Of a stretch of 64,000 nucleotides of DNA, positions 32,862 to 40,601 are shown one piece after another. The notes beneath the pieces were generated by a model. It was not told where the DNA came from, made no database searches, and saw only the letters and a program-made list of their open reading frames with translations. A program made the translations under genes and the position numbers. This stretch comes from Clostridia bacterium (GTDB lineage: Bacteria; Bacillota; Clostridia; Oscillospirales; Acutalibacteraceae). Where the stretch lies: assembly GCA_017513195.1 (NCBI GenBank), contig JAFXGM010000024.1, positions 62,001-126,000 of the forward strand, given 5' to 3'. The first letter of the stretch is position 1; the number at the start of each line of letters is the position of its first letter.

Positions 32862-33644
32862 TTATTTGATTAGGAACAAATTTTTAGCATTTTTAGCGGT
32901 TAAATTTAAAATTTGTTGGGTTGTTGTACCGCGTATTTCGGCAATTTTTTGAGCGGTATATTTTATCATTCCGGAATGACACAGCTTGCCGCGATATGGC
33001 ACGGGAGCAAGGTAGGGACAATCGGTTTCAACAAGTAACAACTCGTCTGGAATAATTTTTACCACGTCGGGTAATTTTTTTGCGTTATTAAAGGTAACAA
33101 CACCGCCAACACCGATATACATACCAAGCTTGATAATTTCCTCTGCCATTTCAACACTGCCCGAATAGCAGTGTACAACGCCTTTTGGTTTATACTTTTT
33201 AAGAATTTCGAGTGTATCGCCGTGAGCGTCGCGATCGTGGACAAGTATTGGTAAATCGAGTTCTTTAGCAAGCAAAATTTGTCGCTCGAAAATCTCAATT
33301 TGCTGAGGTTTGTTATCGTCTACCCAATAATAGTCAAGACCAATTTCACCGATGGCTACGCACTTTGGGTGGGTGGCGAGCGACCTTATTTGCTCGATGG
33401 TAGTACCCGAGTCAATATTGCTTGGGTGAATACCAACGGCGGCATATACAAAGTCATTTTGTTCTGCCATTTTAAGCGCTCTTTTAGATGATGCTTCGTC
33501 GCAACCGCAACTTACAATGCCGCACACACCGTTTTGATGCATTTCATGGAATAACTCGTCACGAATACTGTCAAAACGCTCGTCGTCATAATGCGCGTGA
33601 GTGTCAAAAATAGGGTATGAGTTTATTAAATCGTCGCTATACAT
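32862..33644 (-). CDS. tatD: TatD family metal-dependent hydrolase
   Basis: 260 residues from the ATG at 33644, which shares its A with the TAA of metG (TAATG); an ATG at 33659 would add five residues and overlaps metG. The TatD barrel shows IFDTHAHYDD (HxH), VAIGEIGLDYYW, LDLPILVHDRDAH, VHCYSGSV and VETDCPYLAP, all the metal ligands. TatD proteins are Mg-dependent 3'-exonucleases/DNases involved in DNA repair. Translation is coupled with metG, an arrangement seen in many Firmicutes. Confidence 0.9.
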   Translation of the reverse strand: MYSDDLINSYPIFDTHAHYDDERFDSIRDELFHEMHQNGVCGIVSCGCDEASSKRALKMAEQNDFVYAAVGIHPSNIDSGTTIEQIRSLATHPKCVAIGEIGLDYYWVDDNKPQQIEIFERQILLAKELDLPILVHDRDAHGDTLEILKKYKPKGVVHCYSGSVEMAEEIIKLGMYIGVGGVVTFNNAKKLPDVVKIIPDELLLVETDCPYLAPVPYRGKLCHSGMIKYTAQKIAEIRGTTTQQILNLTAKNAKNLFLIK

Positions 33645-35569
33645 TATCTGATTTTGCATCCTTCGGGAATATTATCAACAAATATTACCTTAACATCGTC
33701 GTTGGGGCAGTCGGCCGCCAAAATCATACCGTTTGACTCTACACCGCAAAGTATAGCAGGCTTAAGATTTGATACAACAATAACGTTGTGACCTATAAGC
33801 TCATCAGGGGTATAATATTTTGCAATACCCGATGCTACTGTACGGAGCTTTCCGCTACCGTCGTTAAGTGTGAGTTTTAAGAGCTTCTTTGCTTTTGGAA
33901 TTGGTTCGCAAGCCACAATTTTGGCAGTTGTAAGCTCTACCTTTGCAAAATCGTCGATTGATATTTCGGGAAGTTTTACGATGTTTGCAGCCTTTTCTGC
34001 CTCGGCTGCCTTTTTTGCCTGTTCAGCAGCGATTTCTTCAAGCACCTTTGGCATATCAATACGCGCAAAAAGCGGAGTTGCTTCGCCAACGGTAAATTCA
34101 TTTACCTTGCCAAAGTCAAGTTCTTTACAATCACTGTTGATTTGTGCGGCAATGCTCTTACAGCTTGACGGAATAACGGGAGTGAGCATAATCGAGAGTA
34201 AGCGTATACCTTCAAGTAAGTTGTAAAGTACGTCGTTAAGACGGGGGAGAGTGCTTTCGTCCTTTGCAAGCACCCAAGGTGTTGTTTCATCAATGTATTT
34301 GTTTAAGCGCTTTGCAAAGTTCATTACGCATTCACATGCATCTGCGTTGCGGTAAGCGTCCATAAGTGAATAATACTTTTGAATTGTATCATTAGCTACT
34401 GCAATAAGTTCGTTGTCTAGTTCTTCACGTGTGCTTGGTGCAGTTACCTTGCCGCCAAAATACTTGTTGGTCATAGCAACAGTACGGTTTACGAGGTTGC
34501 CGAGTGTGTTTGCAAGGTCAGCGTTAAACTTTGTAATAAAGCTTTCATAAGTTATTGTACCGTCTTGTGTAAACGGAATTTCTGAAAGTAGGTAGTAACG
34601 AACTGCATCTATGCCGAAACGAGCGGCAAGCTCGTCAGCATAAATAACGTTGCCCTTTGATTTGGACATTTTATCGTCGCCTACAAGCACCCACGGGTGA
34701 CCGAGCACCTGCTTTGGTAGCGGTTCACCTAAAGCCATCAAAATAATTGGCCAGTAAATTGTGTGGAAACGAACAATATCTTTACCAATTACATGCAAAT
34801 CGGCAGGCCAAAGCTTTTCATATTGTTCACTGCTTCCGTCGGGGTTGTAGCCAACACCTGTGATATAGTTAGAGAGTGCGTCTATCCAAACATAAATTAC
34901 GTGTTTGTCATCAAAGCTTACGGGCACGCCCCACTTAAATGATGAACGTGATACGCAAAGGTCTTGAAGACCCGGCTTTATAAAGTTGTTGAGCATTTCG
35001 TTTTTACGGGATTCCGGCTTTATAAAGTCGGAATTCTGCTCGTAATATTCAACCAATTTGTCTTGATATTTTGAAAGGCGCAAAAAATAAGCTTCTTCTT
35101 TAGAGTCGATAACCTCACGACCACAGTCAGGGCATTTGCCGTCTACAAGCTGACTTTCGGTATAGAAGGACTCGCAAGGAACGCAGTATTTACCTTCATA
35201 AGTGCTTTTGTAAATATCACCTTGGTCGTATAGCTTTTTAAATATCTTTTGAACCGCGTCCTCGTGATAGTCGTCGGTTGTACGGATAAACTTGTCATAG
35301 CAGGTATCAAGTGAGTCCCAAACTGCCTTAATATTAGCAGCAGCATTGTCAACAAATTCTTTAGGACTGATGCCGTCAGCCTTTGCATATTCTTCAATCT
35401 TTTGACCGTGCTCGTCAGAGCCTGTCATAAGATATACATCAAAGCCCATCATCTTTTTGTAACGGGCAATCATATCGGCAAGCACTATATCATATGCGTT
35501 GCCTATATGCGGCTTACGGGATGCGTAAGCAATGGCAGTTGTGATGTAAAATTTTTGTTTGTTATCCAT
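33644..35569 (-). CDS. metG: methionyl-tRNA synthetase
   Basis: 641 residues. The HIGH-type motif is PHIGNAYD near residue 21, the zinc cysteines are in CVPCESFYT and CPDCGRE (CxxC twice), and the KMSKS motif is DDKMSKSKGN near residue 300. A C-terminal tRNA-binding (OB-fold) domain, about 535-641, starts at ISIDDFAKVELTTAKIVA. It charges initiator and elongator tRNA-Met. AGGAGGAATAAATT is the ribosome site; it directly abuts the inverted-repeat element upstream, so the 5' leader and promoter must come from that element. Confidence 0.97.
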   Translation of the reverse strand: MDNKQKFYITTAIAYASRKPHIGNAYDIVLADMIARYKKMMGFDVYLMTGSDEHGQKIEEYAKADGISPKEFVDNAAANIKAVWDSLDTCYDKFIRTTDDYHEDAVQKIFKKLYDQGDIYKSTYEGKYCVPCESFYTESQLVDGKCPDCGREVIDSKEEAYFLRLSKYQDKLVEYYEQNSDFIKPESRKNEMLNNFIKPGLQDLCVSRSSFKWGVPVSFDDKHVIYVWIDALSNYITGVGYNPDGSSEQYEKLWPADLHVIGKDIVRFHTIYWPIILMALGEPLPKQVLGHPWVLVGDDKMSKSKGNVIYADELAARFGIDAVRYYLLSEIPFTQDGTITYESFITKFNADLANTLGNLVNRTVAMTNKYFGGKVTAPSTREELDNELIAVANDTIQKYYSLMDAYRNADACECVMNFAKRLNKYIDETTPWVLAKDESTLPRLNDVLYNLLEGIRLLSIMLTPVIPSSCKSIAAQINSDCKELDFGKVNEFTVGEATPLFARIDMPKVLEEIAAEQAKKAAEAEKAANIVKLPEISIDDFAKVELTTAKIVACEPIPKAKKLLKLTLNDGSGKLRTVASGIAKYYTPDELIGHNVIVVSNLKPAILCGVESNGMILAADCPNDDVKVIFVDNIPEGCKIR

Positions 35570-35582
35570 AATTTATTCCTCC

Positions 35583-35856
35583 TAGGCTGACGGGTGTCGA
35601 ACCGGTTATGGTTTCGAACGCTGCCTTTTGTTGATTATTGTATTCATATTTGTAAAACGGTAGCCTTACTGTAAATTTTACGATTTGCCTTTCGCAAAAG
35701 GCGGATGTGAGAAACTCTTTGACCTGCCAATTAATAATTTTTTGGGAGGGCGAAGCCGAAGAGGGCAGTAATACTGGCGTATTACAAACGATGAGGCAAG
35801 AAAAAACATAAAATTATTATTTGTCAGGCATGACGGGTTTGATACCCATCAGCCTA
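35583..35856. repeat. 274-bp element with imperfect 22-bp terminal inverted repeats
   Basis: TAGGCTGACGGGTGTCGAAC at the left end (35583) matches the complement of the right end (35835-35856, ...CCCATCAGCCTA) at 18 of 22 positions. Inside is a second inverted repeat (about 35720-35742 with 35811-35829), a GTAATAC-TGGC-GTATTAC hairpin and a GCCTTT/AAAGGC hairpin. No reading frame fills it. Its left end meets the metG ribosome site and its right end supplies the TAG stop of the neighbouring gene. It may be a miniature inverted-repeat element or a structured leader RNA. No target duplication is evident. Confidence 0.5.
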
Positions 35857-38493
35857 CGGTTTTCGAATGAGAAAACCGATTATTGATAAAACGGTTGTGC
35901 CAAGTGCGTAAAGTAAAACTGTCGATGCCTGTGGCATTGATAAAATGCCTGAAAAAGCGGCATACACAAAGTAAAGTGCTCCAAGTACTGCAAATATTGA
36001 ATAAAGTATTGTAAGCAAGCGGTTGGATTTATTGATGCCCGAGGCACAATTCACAATCTTTATAAAGTTAAGACCACTGCCGCGGAATATAGCAGGCGAA
36101 GAACAGATTTGCGTATCGGGAACAGCGTTTTTATACATATGAAGACCTGTGTTTGTCATTACTCTTACCGAGTCGTCATAAAGGCCAAAATAGTCGCACA
36201 GCATTGCTTCATTAACGTTAGGATCGCAATTTTCTACAAGTAGCAGTACACCAAGATCAGTAATTTTGTGAAGTTCTTTTTCAACTGCATAATCAACGTT
36301 ATATTGTACTATAATAAGCGCACAAGCGGTAGTTGACGTAGCAACGTACACAGGGAAATAACCCTGGCGTAAAATCTTTTTGTCAACCTCAAGACTAGGA
36401 ATATCTATTCCGTGAGCCTTCATAAGTGAACGGTTGCCTATAAATAAAGGTTCGTTGTCTACCCAGCCTGAAATACCGAGATTTTTTTCATATTTTACGG
36501 TATCGGAATCGGGAATAGAATAAGACGTGTTAGTGCCTGCAATTTCTTCAAATATAGGACGCAGCGGGCTACCGACAGCCGCGGTAAGCGAAGCCGCACG
36601 TAGTAAGATTTCGTCAATATTGTTATTTGACAGCACCTTCATATCGTGTAGTGTTATTGTTCCTTGAGGGAAAATATCATTGACGTTAATAACTGCGGCA
36701 TTCGCGTTTTCAATTTTTTCGGCGCCGTAAATACCGGCAATCATTGCGCCTTTATCATTAAGCTTTTTAGCTGCCGAAGTAAGAGGTAGGGTGTCAATTA
36801 AAAATGCGGTCGGAATTGCTGCAATACCGGTAATGCAGGTTGCGGCAAAAACCGCACTAAAAATATTGTTGTTGCCGTCTAAAAAGTATGCTATAATTCC
36901 GCAAATCAAAGCAAGACCTAAAGTTACGTAAAAAATTATTGGTGTTTTGCCCGACATGGTAGCGTGATAATCATAGTGTTTGCAAAAGTTTTCAACAAAA
37001 CCCGTCTTTTTGTGTGCGGCAATTAAAACATCACCATCAATTGAATTCTTTGCCATAGCAAAGGTGGTTGCAGAATCGTTTATAAGAGTAACAGCATTTT
37101 TAGGATTATCATTTGTAATTTTCTTAAGGCTGCTGTGTTTTGTTGATATAAATTTGAATTTGCATACTGTTCGAACAAAAAGAACAACGGCGCACAAGAA
37201 AATCATATGAAAGGCATCAGAATTTGTAAATGAAGCGGTAACACCAAGTGTTAAAGTAGATATTGCAAATAAAGCCGCCATAATATCGAATGTTGCACGT
37301 TTATTTAATAGATTTTTAAAGTCAGCGCACATATCAATATTAGCTGCAATTGATACAAATAAAAATGCCGAGCAGGTAACCATTGCATCTTTTGCATTTG
37401 CAAGTCTAAAATCGTGCAAAGAAGGTATAAAGAAAAGTGAAAGAGCAATAAGTGCAACTAAAGAAATAATTGCATCAATAAAGTATGAACGTTTTTTCTT
37501 GGCAAGCGATAAAAGCAACTGCTTTCCGCTTTTGGCGTCAGTATATTCTTCTTGTGGAGTAAATGCGTCAAAATCGGATTCTTCAAATTGAGGGGAAGAA
37601 TGGCTTGATATATCCTCCGGAATTTGCTCGCCAAGATCAATATGCTTTGTGACGCTACTAATCGTTATATGATCGGTGTTTCCTTTGTTATCTTTTATAG
37701 GAGTAAAACGTATTGTAGCTGTATTGGAAATCGGGTTTTCGTTGGTAATGCCAACCTCTTGTGTGTCAATGTCAGAAATATCGGGCACACTGATATCGGG
37801 CAGCTCTTTTGCCTTTTTTTCTTCAAAAAGACTTTCGTAAAGCTTGCGGTTTTCACGGGCTTCAGAATCATTAACCATTTGTTCAAAAGCGGGGGTAGGC
37901 GTAGTGGCATTTGAATTGTTTTTTTGTGGTGTTGATTCGTTCTTTGTAGTTGCTTCTTGGGTTGGTGTTTTCTCCTTCGGCTTTTTGCCTAAATCATCTA
38001 CTACAAAGTCAAGGCCATATTTTTTAGATAGGTTTTTCATGGCGGTTTCGCCATCGTTCATCAAAATTTCCGCAACGCTTTCAAGCTCGTAAAGCGGCTT
38101 TTGGTTTTCGGTTACGTCGTGACCTTGTTCGTCTATGGTATAACGCTTAACCTTTTCCATAAGAGTTTTGTTATCCTTTATTGTTGCGTCGGATACATCA
38201 ATGTGCTTTGGCTTAAGTTCTTTTTGCGGCTTGGGAGTTACGGTTTTTTTGATGGGTGTTTCTTTGATTTCTTCGTCCTTTTCATTTGAAACGTTCATTC
38301 GCTTTTTGAGCGAATCGAGCGCATTGGTTTGTTTAGGAGTCTCGTTATCACCGAAAACCCAAAGGCCTGAAACCTCTTCGGGTGTCATAGCGTGAGGTGC
38401 TAGATTTTTATCACCCGATATTTTTATAGGCTCATCGTCGGTATTTATAATAAATCCGTTGTTTTCATCTTTTCGTTTTGAGAAAAATCCCAT
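35854..38493 (-). CDS. degenerate P-type-ATPase-like membrane protein
   Basis: 879 residues. The first 340 residues are acidic, proline-rich and probably disordered. Then come at least six membrane helices (near 343-365, 375-395, 405-425, 430-450, 535-560 and 565-590). The following cytoplasmic part (about 600-810) lines up by eye with HMA-type P-type ATPases, but the phosphorylation site DKTGT is replaced by VNDIFPQGT, the TGD motif by VENCDPN and the CPC-type motif by GIAAIPTAF. A final pair of membrane segments ends the protein. So it should bind no phosphate and not pump ions; a structural or regulatory role is likely. It lies between rlmB and metG. Confidence 0.7.
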   Translation of the reverse strand: MGFFSKRKDENNGFIINTDDEPIKISGDKNLAPHAMTPEEVSGLWVFGDNETPKQTNALDSLKKRMNVSNEKDEEIKETPIKKTVTPKPQKELKPKHIDVSDATIKDNKTLMEKVKRYTIDEQGHDVTENQKPLYELESVAEILMNDGETAMKNLSKKYGLDFVVDDLGKKPKEKTPTQEATTKNESTPQKNNSNATTPTPAFEQMVNDSEARENRKLYESLFEEKKAKELPDISVPDISDIDTQEVGITNENPISNTATIRFTPIKDNKGNTDHITISSVTKHIDLGEQIPEDISSHSSPQFEESDFDAFTPQEEYTDAKSGKQLLLSLAKKKRSYFIDAIISLVALIALSLFFIPSLHDFRLANAKDAMVTCSAFLFVSIAANIDMCADFKNLLNKRATFDIMAALFAISTLTLGVTASFTNSDAFHMIFLCAVVLFVRTVCKFKFISTKHSSLKKITNDNPKNAVTLINDSATTFAMAKNSIDGDVLIAAHKKTGFVENFCKHYDYHATMSGKTPIIFYVTLGLALICGIIAYFLDGNNNIFSAVFAATCITGIAAIPTAFLIDTLPLTSAAKKLNDKGAMIAGIYGAEKIENANAAVINVNDIFPQGTITLHDMKVLSNNNIDEILLRAASLTAAVGSPLRPIFEEIAGTNTSYSIPDSDTVKYEKNLGISGWVDNEPLFIGNRSLMKAHGIDIPSLEVDKKILRQGYFPVYVATSTTACALIIVQYNVDYAVEKELHKITDLGVLLLVENCDPNVNEAMLCDYFGLYDDSVRVMTNTGLHMYKNAVPDTQICSSPAIFRGSGLNFIKIVNCASGINKSNRLLTILYSIFAVLGALYFVYAAFSGILSMPQASTVLLYALGTTVLSIIGFLIRKP

Positions 38494-38512: not shown

Positions 38513-39283
38513 TTATTTTAAATTTCTCTTTCTTACTACTTCGTACATTAGTACACCGGCGGCTACAGATGCGTTAAGTGAATTAATTTTGCCGCACATA
38601 GGAAGACTGATAATGCCGTCACATTTTTTGGCAACCAAAGTGCCAATGCCTTTACCCTCGTTGCCGATAACTATTGCACAAGGCATATCATAATCGGTGT
38701 TGGTATAGGCGGCACCATCCATATCGGCGCCAAACACCCAAATGCCTTTTTCTTTAAGCTCGTCAATAGTGTTTGATATGTTGGTAACGCGCGCAACCTT
38801 CATGTATGCCAAGGCGCCTGCCGACGTTTTTTCAACAGTAGCGTTAAGCGAGGCCGAACGACGTTTTGGAATGATTATGCCGTGTACACCGCAAGCCTCG
38901 GCTGTACGGATAATAGCGCCAAGGTTGTGAGGGTCCTCGATTTCATCACAAATTACAATAAAAGGATTTTCACTTCGCTCCTCGGCGGTTTTTAGTATCT
39001 CTTCTACCGTAGAATATTCCTGACTGGCTATCATTACGGCAACGCCTTGATGATTACCACCATTACAGTAATAGTCAAGCTTTTGAGGGCTGATTTCTTT
39101 GATAAGTATGCCGCGTGCGGCGCATTTTGCACGAATTGCTGTAACCGAGCCGCCCGTTACACCGTGTGCGATGAGCAGTCTGTCAATTTCGCGGCCAGAA
39201 CGCAGAGCCTCCATAACGGGATTTCTGCCATATATGATATTACCTTGCTTTGAGTCAAGATTTTCCCTATTGCCAAATTCCAT
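38513..39283 (-). CDS. rlmB: 23S rRNA guanosine-2'-O-methyltransferase, SpoU family
   Basis: 256 residues. Start at ATG 39283 with AGGTGATTAT before it. IIYGRNPVMEAL begins the substrate-binding domain, and the SPOUT knot motifs are visible: EIEDPHNLGAIIRTAEACGVHG, VIGNEGKGI and MCGKINSLNASVAAGVLMYE. It methylates G2251-type sites of 23S rRNA using S-adenosylmethionine; the exact target could be RlmB or a close TrmH-like enzyme. It overlaps the enolase upstream region on the other strand. Confidence 0.93.
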   Translation of the reverse strand: MEFGNRENLDSKQGNIIYGRNPVMEALRSGREIDRLLIAHGVTGGSVTAIRAKCAARGILIKEISPQKLDYYCNGGNHQGVAVMIASQEYSTVEEILKTAEERSENPFIVICDEIEDPHNLGAIIRTAEACGVHGIIIPKRRSASLNATVEKTSAGALAYMKVARVTNISNTIDELKEKGIWVFGADMDGAAYTNTDYDMPCAIVIGNEGKGIGTLVAKKCDGIISLPMCGKINSLNASVAAGVLMYEVVRKRNLK

Positions 39284-39335
39284 ATAATCACCTATTATAT
39301 AATAATACATAGTAATTATAACATACATAAAATAA

Positions 39336-40601
<1,266 letters not shown>

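Follow-up and report, generated by a model that had tools for sequence, protein, structure and literature searches.

Gene X encodes 879 residues in a 64,000-nucleotide stretch of DNA from a Clostridia bacterium (family Acutalibacteraceae, order Oscillospirales; GenBank assembly GCA_017513195.1, contig JAFXGM010000024.1, positions 62,001 to 126,000), which in its full length is called the window here. The gene product is understood as a relative of the heavy-metal P1B ATPases in which the predicted fold is kept and the catalytic chemistry appears to be lost. On the minus strand, the gene order is rlmB, X, metG and tatD (Table 1), with a distance of 19 bp from the rlmB stop to the ATG of X. The longest open reading frame (ORF) of rlmB begins with TTG and its likely start is the ATG at 39283; metG and tatD are names that we assume from family resemblance.

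Table 1 Gene X, its parts and its neighbours in the window (pLDDT, predicted local-distance difference test; pI, isoelectric point)
Feature	Position in window	Strand	Basis
Gene X, 879-aa pseudo-P1B-ATPase, whole ORF	35854..38493	-	
X residues 1-319, acidic tail, mostly disordered	37537..38493	-	conservation, pLDDT, pI 4.80
X residues 320-879, predicted eight-helix P1B-like core, membrane and cytosolic	35857..37536	-	
X residues 462-512, remnant of the A domain, shortened, without TGES	36958..37110	-	
X residues 559-561 (AIP), site of the M4 CPC metal motif	36811..36819	-	
X residues 603-607 (NVNDI), site of DKTGT	36673..36687	-	
X residues 613-731, N domain, former nucleotide-binding domain, most conserved part	36301..36657	-	
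X residues 755-757 (NCD), site of TGD, Asp retained	36223..36231	-	
rlmB, 23S rRNA (guanosine-2251-2'-O)-methyltransferase	38513..39385	-	TIGR00186, 254.6 bits, cut-off 160.15
metG-like gene, downstream of X, same direction	33644..35569	-	
tatD-like gene, downstream of X, same direction	32862..33659	-	

A first-pass annotation, made from the letters of the sequence, had placed the protein in the P-type ATPase fold, and the structural comparison bears this out. AlphaFold2 models of X give a P-type fold with eight membrane helices and the A (actuator), P (phosphorylation) and N (nucleotide-binding) domains, with P1B ATPases as the top matches; Foldseek ranks P1B ATPases first for the window protein and also for a deep-branching relative. 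The hydropathy segments merge into eight, plus one at residues 711-729 that falls inside a predicted strand. CopA-type P1B ATPases are the best matches of X by sequence, by profile and by fold, and the agreement of the three led us to reject a chance resemblance to P-type ATPases. X misses the NCBIfam cut-off (NF007952, 44 bits compared to a cut-off of 1316), and its Pfam scan returned no match. A maximum-likelihood tree built from 80 rows splits the 76 rows of X from four CopAs with support of 100/100; the tree predates, and hence omits, the deepest families of the order, and long branches are flagged in its deep part. X groups with the P1B ATPases by fold and profile and, judged from sequence, shares descent with CopA.

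The phosphorylated aspartate is a defining feature of P-type ATPases. The loss of catalytic motifs, initially claimed for the window copy, holds for the relatives examined as well, with single letters surviving in part. A near alignment of 258 rows (252 distinct sequences, many of them near relatives) was used along with a wider one of 57 rows from 21 families of the order, the latter including a 430-aa C-terminal piece of X from locus L177; four true CopAs, included in both, retain the motif letters considered here. Lys and Gly of DKTGT occur in 0/258 and 0/57 rows, and the last Thr is absent from every row. TGD is intact in no row, its Gly being absent throughout both alignments, and GDGxND is gapped in 258/258 and 57/57 rows. 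The TGES columns are gapped in all 258 near rows, one of which (L043) has the letters TGES elsewhere; the 57 wider rows, loosely aligned at these columns, hold no TGE and a single Thr. The A domain, with boundaries chosen by us from the structure model and the alignment, comprises 51 residues in X compared to ~123 in the CopA of the same genome. The CPx motif of M4 is lost, its first Cys occurring in 6/258 and 1/57 rows and its second in 0/57. In the N domain, Glu and His of the nucleotide site, which we take to be the main adenine contacts of CopA, occur in 0/258 and 0/57 rows. DKTG strings elsewhere in X (2 of 196 sequences, L049 and P0068, together with L100 and L101) were set aside, all of them belonging to the tail by position. 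In the standard P-type scheme, loss of the DKTGT Lys and Gly, of GDGxND and of TGES means that the machinery of phosphorylation and that of dephosphorylation are both missing. X, as we understand it, would form no phospho-enzyme and would move no metal. Since the wider members more often keep single letters and none reads a whole motif, the window copy is, on these alignments, the far end of an old motif loss. The notion of a recruited pseudo-enzyme, raised in the first-pass annotation, is supported by the P1B fold match in combination with motifs broken throughout the relatives examined; both outcomes that the annotation had listed as refuting were looked for, and neither came about. Its suggestion of a regulator or scaffold is plausible.

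Where the conservation of X resides provides the best evidence on the part of the protein that does its work. Among non-redundant pairs with 55-65% identity over the core, identity by part of X is 0.794 in the N domain, 0.660 in P, 0.592 in A, 0.501 in the membrane helices and 0.467 in the tail (1348 pairs), compared to 0.710 in the membrane helices, 0.626 in A, 0.619 in P and 0.363 in N for the CopAs of related hosts (392 pairs); the ranking of domains is the same in the band of 65-75% identity. The pattern of X is inverted relative to CopA, with the former nucleotide domain highest and the membrane helices lowest within the core, whereas the CopAs of this set preserve the transport path and have a drifting nucleotide domain. 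The inversion suggests that the work of the protein has shifted from the membrane part to the cytosolic head. At the C-terminus, X ends on Lys-Pro (window 35857-35862), of which Pro879 is invariant in 69/69 near-clade rows and Lys878 is kept in at least 90%; the pair is not conserved in deep members.

The search for relatives returned 649 at E ≤ 1e-3; among the best 120 of these 649, most are full length, none has a precomputed Pfam domain and the few source-given names read 'hypothetical protein'. A genome scan added 76 further X loci at 22-72% identity. With a profile built from 29 diverse members, X is matched at E ≤ 1e-30 in 275 of 295 genomes of the order, in 220 of the 226 genomes with completeness of 90% or more and contamination of no more than 5%, and in 143 of 148 genera, with one match per genome in all but three; the weakest in-order matches at this threshold (e.g., G217, E 1.8e-32) were counted without individual inspection. 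An earlier, shallower profile reached 168/295 genomes at a looser threshold, but it misses deep members and its weak hits may include real CopAs. In searches of the class and the phylum, no genome labelled outside the order scored above 101.4 bits (E 2.5e-29). The best out-of-order matches span profile positions ~559-836 only, that is, the P/N stretch, and the 13 of 13 that were read carry DKTGT, CPC, TGES and GDG[IV]ND, which identifies them as real CopAs. X appears to belong to the core genes of one order and, as far as these profile searches go, of nothing else in the sample. In genome G022 (family f23, with family labels as assigned by a genome tool), X is split by TGA into open pieces of 363 aa and 430 aa (L177 / L086), which may reflect a broken gene, an error of assembly or recoding, and one internal stop is likewise present in six other matches among those listed.

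The tail that precedes the membrane part had been described as long and acidic, and this is common among the members without being general, as four of the four f10 members examined lack it. Of 114 members, 109 have more than 80 residues ahead of the first helix, and the tail is acidic (pI <5.5) in 104 of the 109; a hydropathy analysis of 95 members puts the start of the first membrane segment at residue 113 to 922. The tail of the window protein contains short conserved stretches, for example at residues 111-169, 200-216 and 232-286. A motif resembling [FYM]S[LIV]DDILxE is found among the N-terminal 61 residues of X in members of families f2, f3, f4, f7, f11, f15, f23 and f26, its carriers including L127, L128, L165-L167, L170 and L171. 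Among 3300 ORFs from the fetched loci and the window, it has 24 matches (16 distinct genes, the loci being overlapping), all of them X or its N-terminal piece, and shuffled sequences give 0. The stretch is a possible docking helix. The clade of the window carries other tail motifs, and the tail looks like a set of lineage-variable docking motifs, not the core function.

The constant neighbour of X is rlmB, which immediately precedes X in the same orientation at 123 of 126 loci, the other three being cut by a contig end. This count brings together the window with L004-L079 (74/77, from 72 of 76 rows plus L070 and L073; L007, L061 and L078 start at a contig end) and 49 of 49 further genomes (20/20, 9/9 and 20/20) that span 21 families. 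The 49 were picked out of 275 from the matches listed, by best scores and then by about one per family, with f5, f6, f12, f16 and f25 outside the reading; the 77 loci come from another collection, and species may recur in both. The neighbour is RlmB by NCBIfam TIGR00186 in 3/3 cases tested and was named elsewhere by BLAST to these three. Among 72 pairs, 70 have a gap of -85 to 48 nt between rlmB and X (it is 146 nt in L058 and 408 nt in L060), and the rlmB stop overlaps the X start by 1 or 4 nt in 17/72, which suggests that the two genes are translationally coupled. Where X is split (L177, f23), it is the N-terminal piece that adjoins rlmB. On the other side, a member of the metG cluster stands within seven ORFs of X in 60/76 rows of the near set and tatD in 55/76. 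In the wider loci, for which ten neighbours were scanned, the downstream genes vary and include EF-G twice, a pyruvate phosphate dikinase-like protein and DUF6062; ribulose-phosphate epimerase, nitroreductase, LytR-family and MgtC-family proteins are further neighbours there.

Two other candidates from the gene surroundings were considered. In 14 loci, the gene for a Wzy_C (O-antigen-ligase-like) membrane protein separates X from metG or directly follows X; the 14 genes form one BLAST cluster, from which three were scanned and all proved to be Wzy_C, and the gene of this type at L062:9500-10726 overlaps the X stop by 4 nt. PF04932 (Wzy_C) has no match in the window genome, and an O-antigen ligase was for that reason rejected as a general partner of X. 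YacP is presumably a neighbour of rlmB in Bacillus. The idea that X replaces it was dropped: PF05991 (NYN_YacP) is absent from the window genome but present in 32/117 genomes of the order. Of these 32 matches, 31 lie within frames of 833-1334 aa (e.g., G097:C73:26995-27459), long enough to indicate that NYN_YacP is apparently fused to another domain.

We propose, with confidence about evenly poised, that X is a non-pumping P1B relative, likely a receptor or scaffold that is anchored in the membrane and produced along with RlmB. Its membrane part would be mainly an anchor, and the cytosolic head, chiefly the former nucleotide domain, would bind a partner or a small ligand; the disordered tail, where present, would contribute short docking motifs. 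The partner would be RlmB itself or its substrate, the large ribosomal subunit, as suggested by the retention of the rlmB-X pair while other neighbours change.

Several observations weigh against this proposal. Adjacency to rlmB can stem from inherited operon order instead of shared function. The tailless f10 members (L161-L164; X of 541-548 aa, first helix at residue 17-21) show that docking through the tail is not a universal function. N-domain residues that do not vary among close relatives of the window protein are less strictly kept in the order at large, the Trp677 column holding Trp in 31/57 rows. The Foldseek template-modelling (TM) scores are modest (for 4bbj, 0.36 by query and 0.45 by target, at a root-mean-square deviation, rmsd, of 11.2) and the VIA rmsd is near 9, which implies a domain arrangement that is unlike the solved pumps or poorly fixed. 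Six high-quality genomes of the order are without a match, and an internal stop is present in at least seven of the matches listed in the order-wide profile search, G022 providing one instance. Internal stops, together with the loss of the main motifs, might be taken to indicate a decaying gene or recent pseudogene, yet such decay is exceedingly improbable in the face of 649 relatives (mostly full length among the best 120), of the near-complete presence in high-quality genomes and of the strong residue conservation of X; a recent broken gene is ruled out by distribution and conservation.

To the same opposing side belong the letters of the old active site that survive. The phosphorylation column still holds Asp in 75/258 and 29/57 rows, a Gly-Glu pair stands on the TGES columns in 6/57, the Thr of TGD is found in 12/258 and 35/57 and its Asp in 255/258 and 56/57, and most rows have a Pro where the M4 metal motif would stand or next to it. 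The nucleotide cradle is partly kept, with the second Gly of GxG in 255/258 and the Gly of the GN pair in 256/258 rows, and the head of X may still bind nucleotide. Because of the surviving Asp, Thr and Gly-Glu letters, residual phospho-chemistry or nucleotide binding is possible in part of the family. X might then be an energy-using pump or phosphatase of altered chemistry, acting through the Asp of the D606 column (which aligns with the Gly of DKTGT and holds Asp in 242/258 and Asp or Glu in 48/57 rows) or through the old catalytic Asp paired with the nearly invariant Asp of the TGD column. We consider this improbable, as the DKTGT Lys and Gly, GDGxND and the TGES of the A domain are gone and conservation within the core is lowest in the membrane helices. 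With the cradle partly kept, ligand sensing by the cytosolic head is to be taken seriously, either as a rival to the proposed role or as an addition to it. In the strict form of this reading, for which we see a real yet rather low likelihood, X would be a receptor in the membrane that takes a small ligand (nucleotide, metal or S-adenosylmethionine-related) and has no direct tie to RlmB, rlmB simply heading an old operon. Conservation is, after all, highest in the former nucleotide domain, which retains its two glycines almost throughout, and the order of metG and tatD is also kept in the near clade, operon inheritance alone being able to hold genes together. Retention of rlmB in 123/123 readable loci, deep branches with a changed downstream gene included, argues against it, as does the absence of the presumed adenine contacts Glu and His from all rows.

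Regarding known systems, X resembles the CopA-type Cu+-exporting P1B-1 ATPases (3rfu, 4bbj, 7r0g) in its predicted eight helices and in the same order of A, P and N domains; it differs in lacking DKTGT, TGES, GDGxND and CPC, in the lost nucleotide-site Glu and His, and in the shortened A and P domains. X fails both the catalytic and the metal features of the type, and the label 'pump' would seem unsuitable. The window genome has an intact CopA (L001) from the same superfamily, and X could conceivably be a dead subunit that binds and tunes this CopA or another P-type pump; this, too, appears improbable, considering that X does not adjoin copA in the window, that a copA-like gene stands near X in just 2/20 loci (co-location was rejected as a rule) and that the window protein is without CxxC and the CPC pair is absent. 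The second P-type ATPase of the same genome, L002 (G000:C15:166054-168498, outside the window, 815 aa), which we assume from its motifs to be P2-like, keeps DKTG and has SGDV in place of TGES and TGNDFEDADAL in place of TGDGVNDAPAL. Its relatives from genomes of the family read DKTGT in 19/19, TGES in 16/19 and TGDG[VI]NDAPAL in 14/19, and L002 looks like an isolated, partly degenerate pump. KdpB, the P1A subunit of KdpFABC, is a lower-rank Foldseek match (5mrw_B, E 4.9e-11) and exemplifies a P-type subunit reliant on a partner protein; unlike X, it is catalytically active, and no KdpA-like neighbour of X was noticed, although no search was aimed at KdpA. Functionally uncharacterised P-type ATPase (FUPA) families, described by Chan et al. 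in 2010, are said to include truncated or defective members.

P-type ATPases are classed P1 to P6, with more prokaryotic families expected (2023 review, PMC10654040). The P6 (CtpE) family and the uncharacterised CtpH/CtpI are, like X, prokaryotic lineages outside the classic families, but unlike X they are described there as pumps or possible pumps; the passages of that review consulted here mention no P-type family without the phosphorylated Asp motif. X shares with pseudoenzymes in general the retained fold, the lost catalytic motifs and a putative non-catalytic work, a class reviewed in PMC10211241. A literature search, with most subscription papers outside its scope, found no pseudoenzyme among P-type ATPases, no dead P-type family and no link between rlmB and P-type ATPases.

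Lastly, X has importance as a near-universal, usually single-copy and unannotated core gene of the order in which the predicted fold is kept and the chemistry is not. It suggests that the P-type fold can be retained for work of a different kind. With rlmB as its constant neighbour, X has a specific candidate partner, and the inverted conservation points to where on the protein to look. A bolder extension, which we regard as doubtful, is that across the whole order a copper pump has become a dead core membrane platform that works with RlmB, its former ATP domain having turned into a head that reads a partner or ligand and ties one step of ribosome maturation to the membrane.
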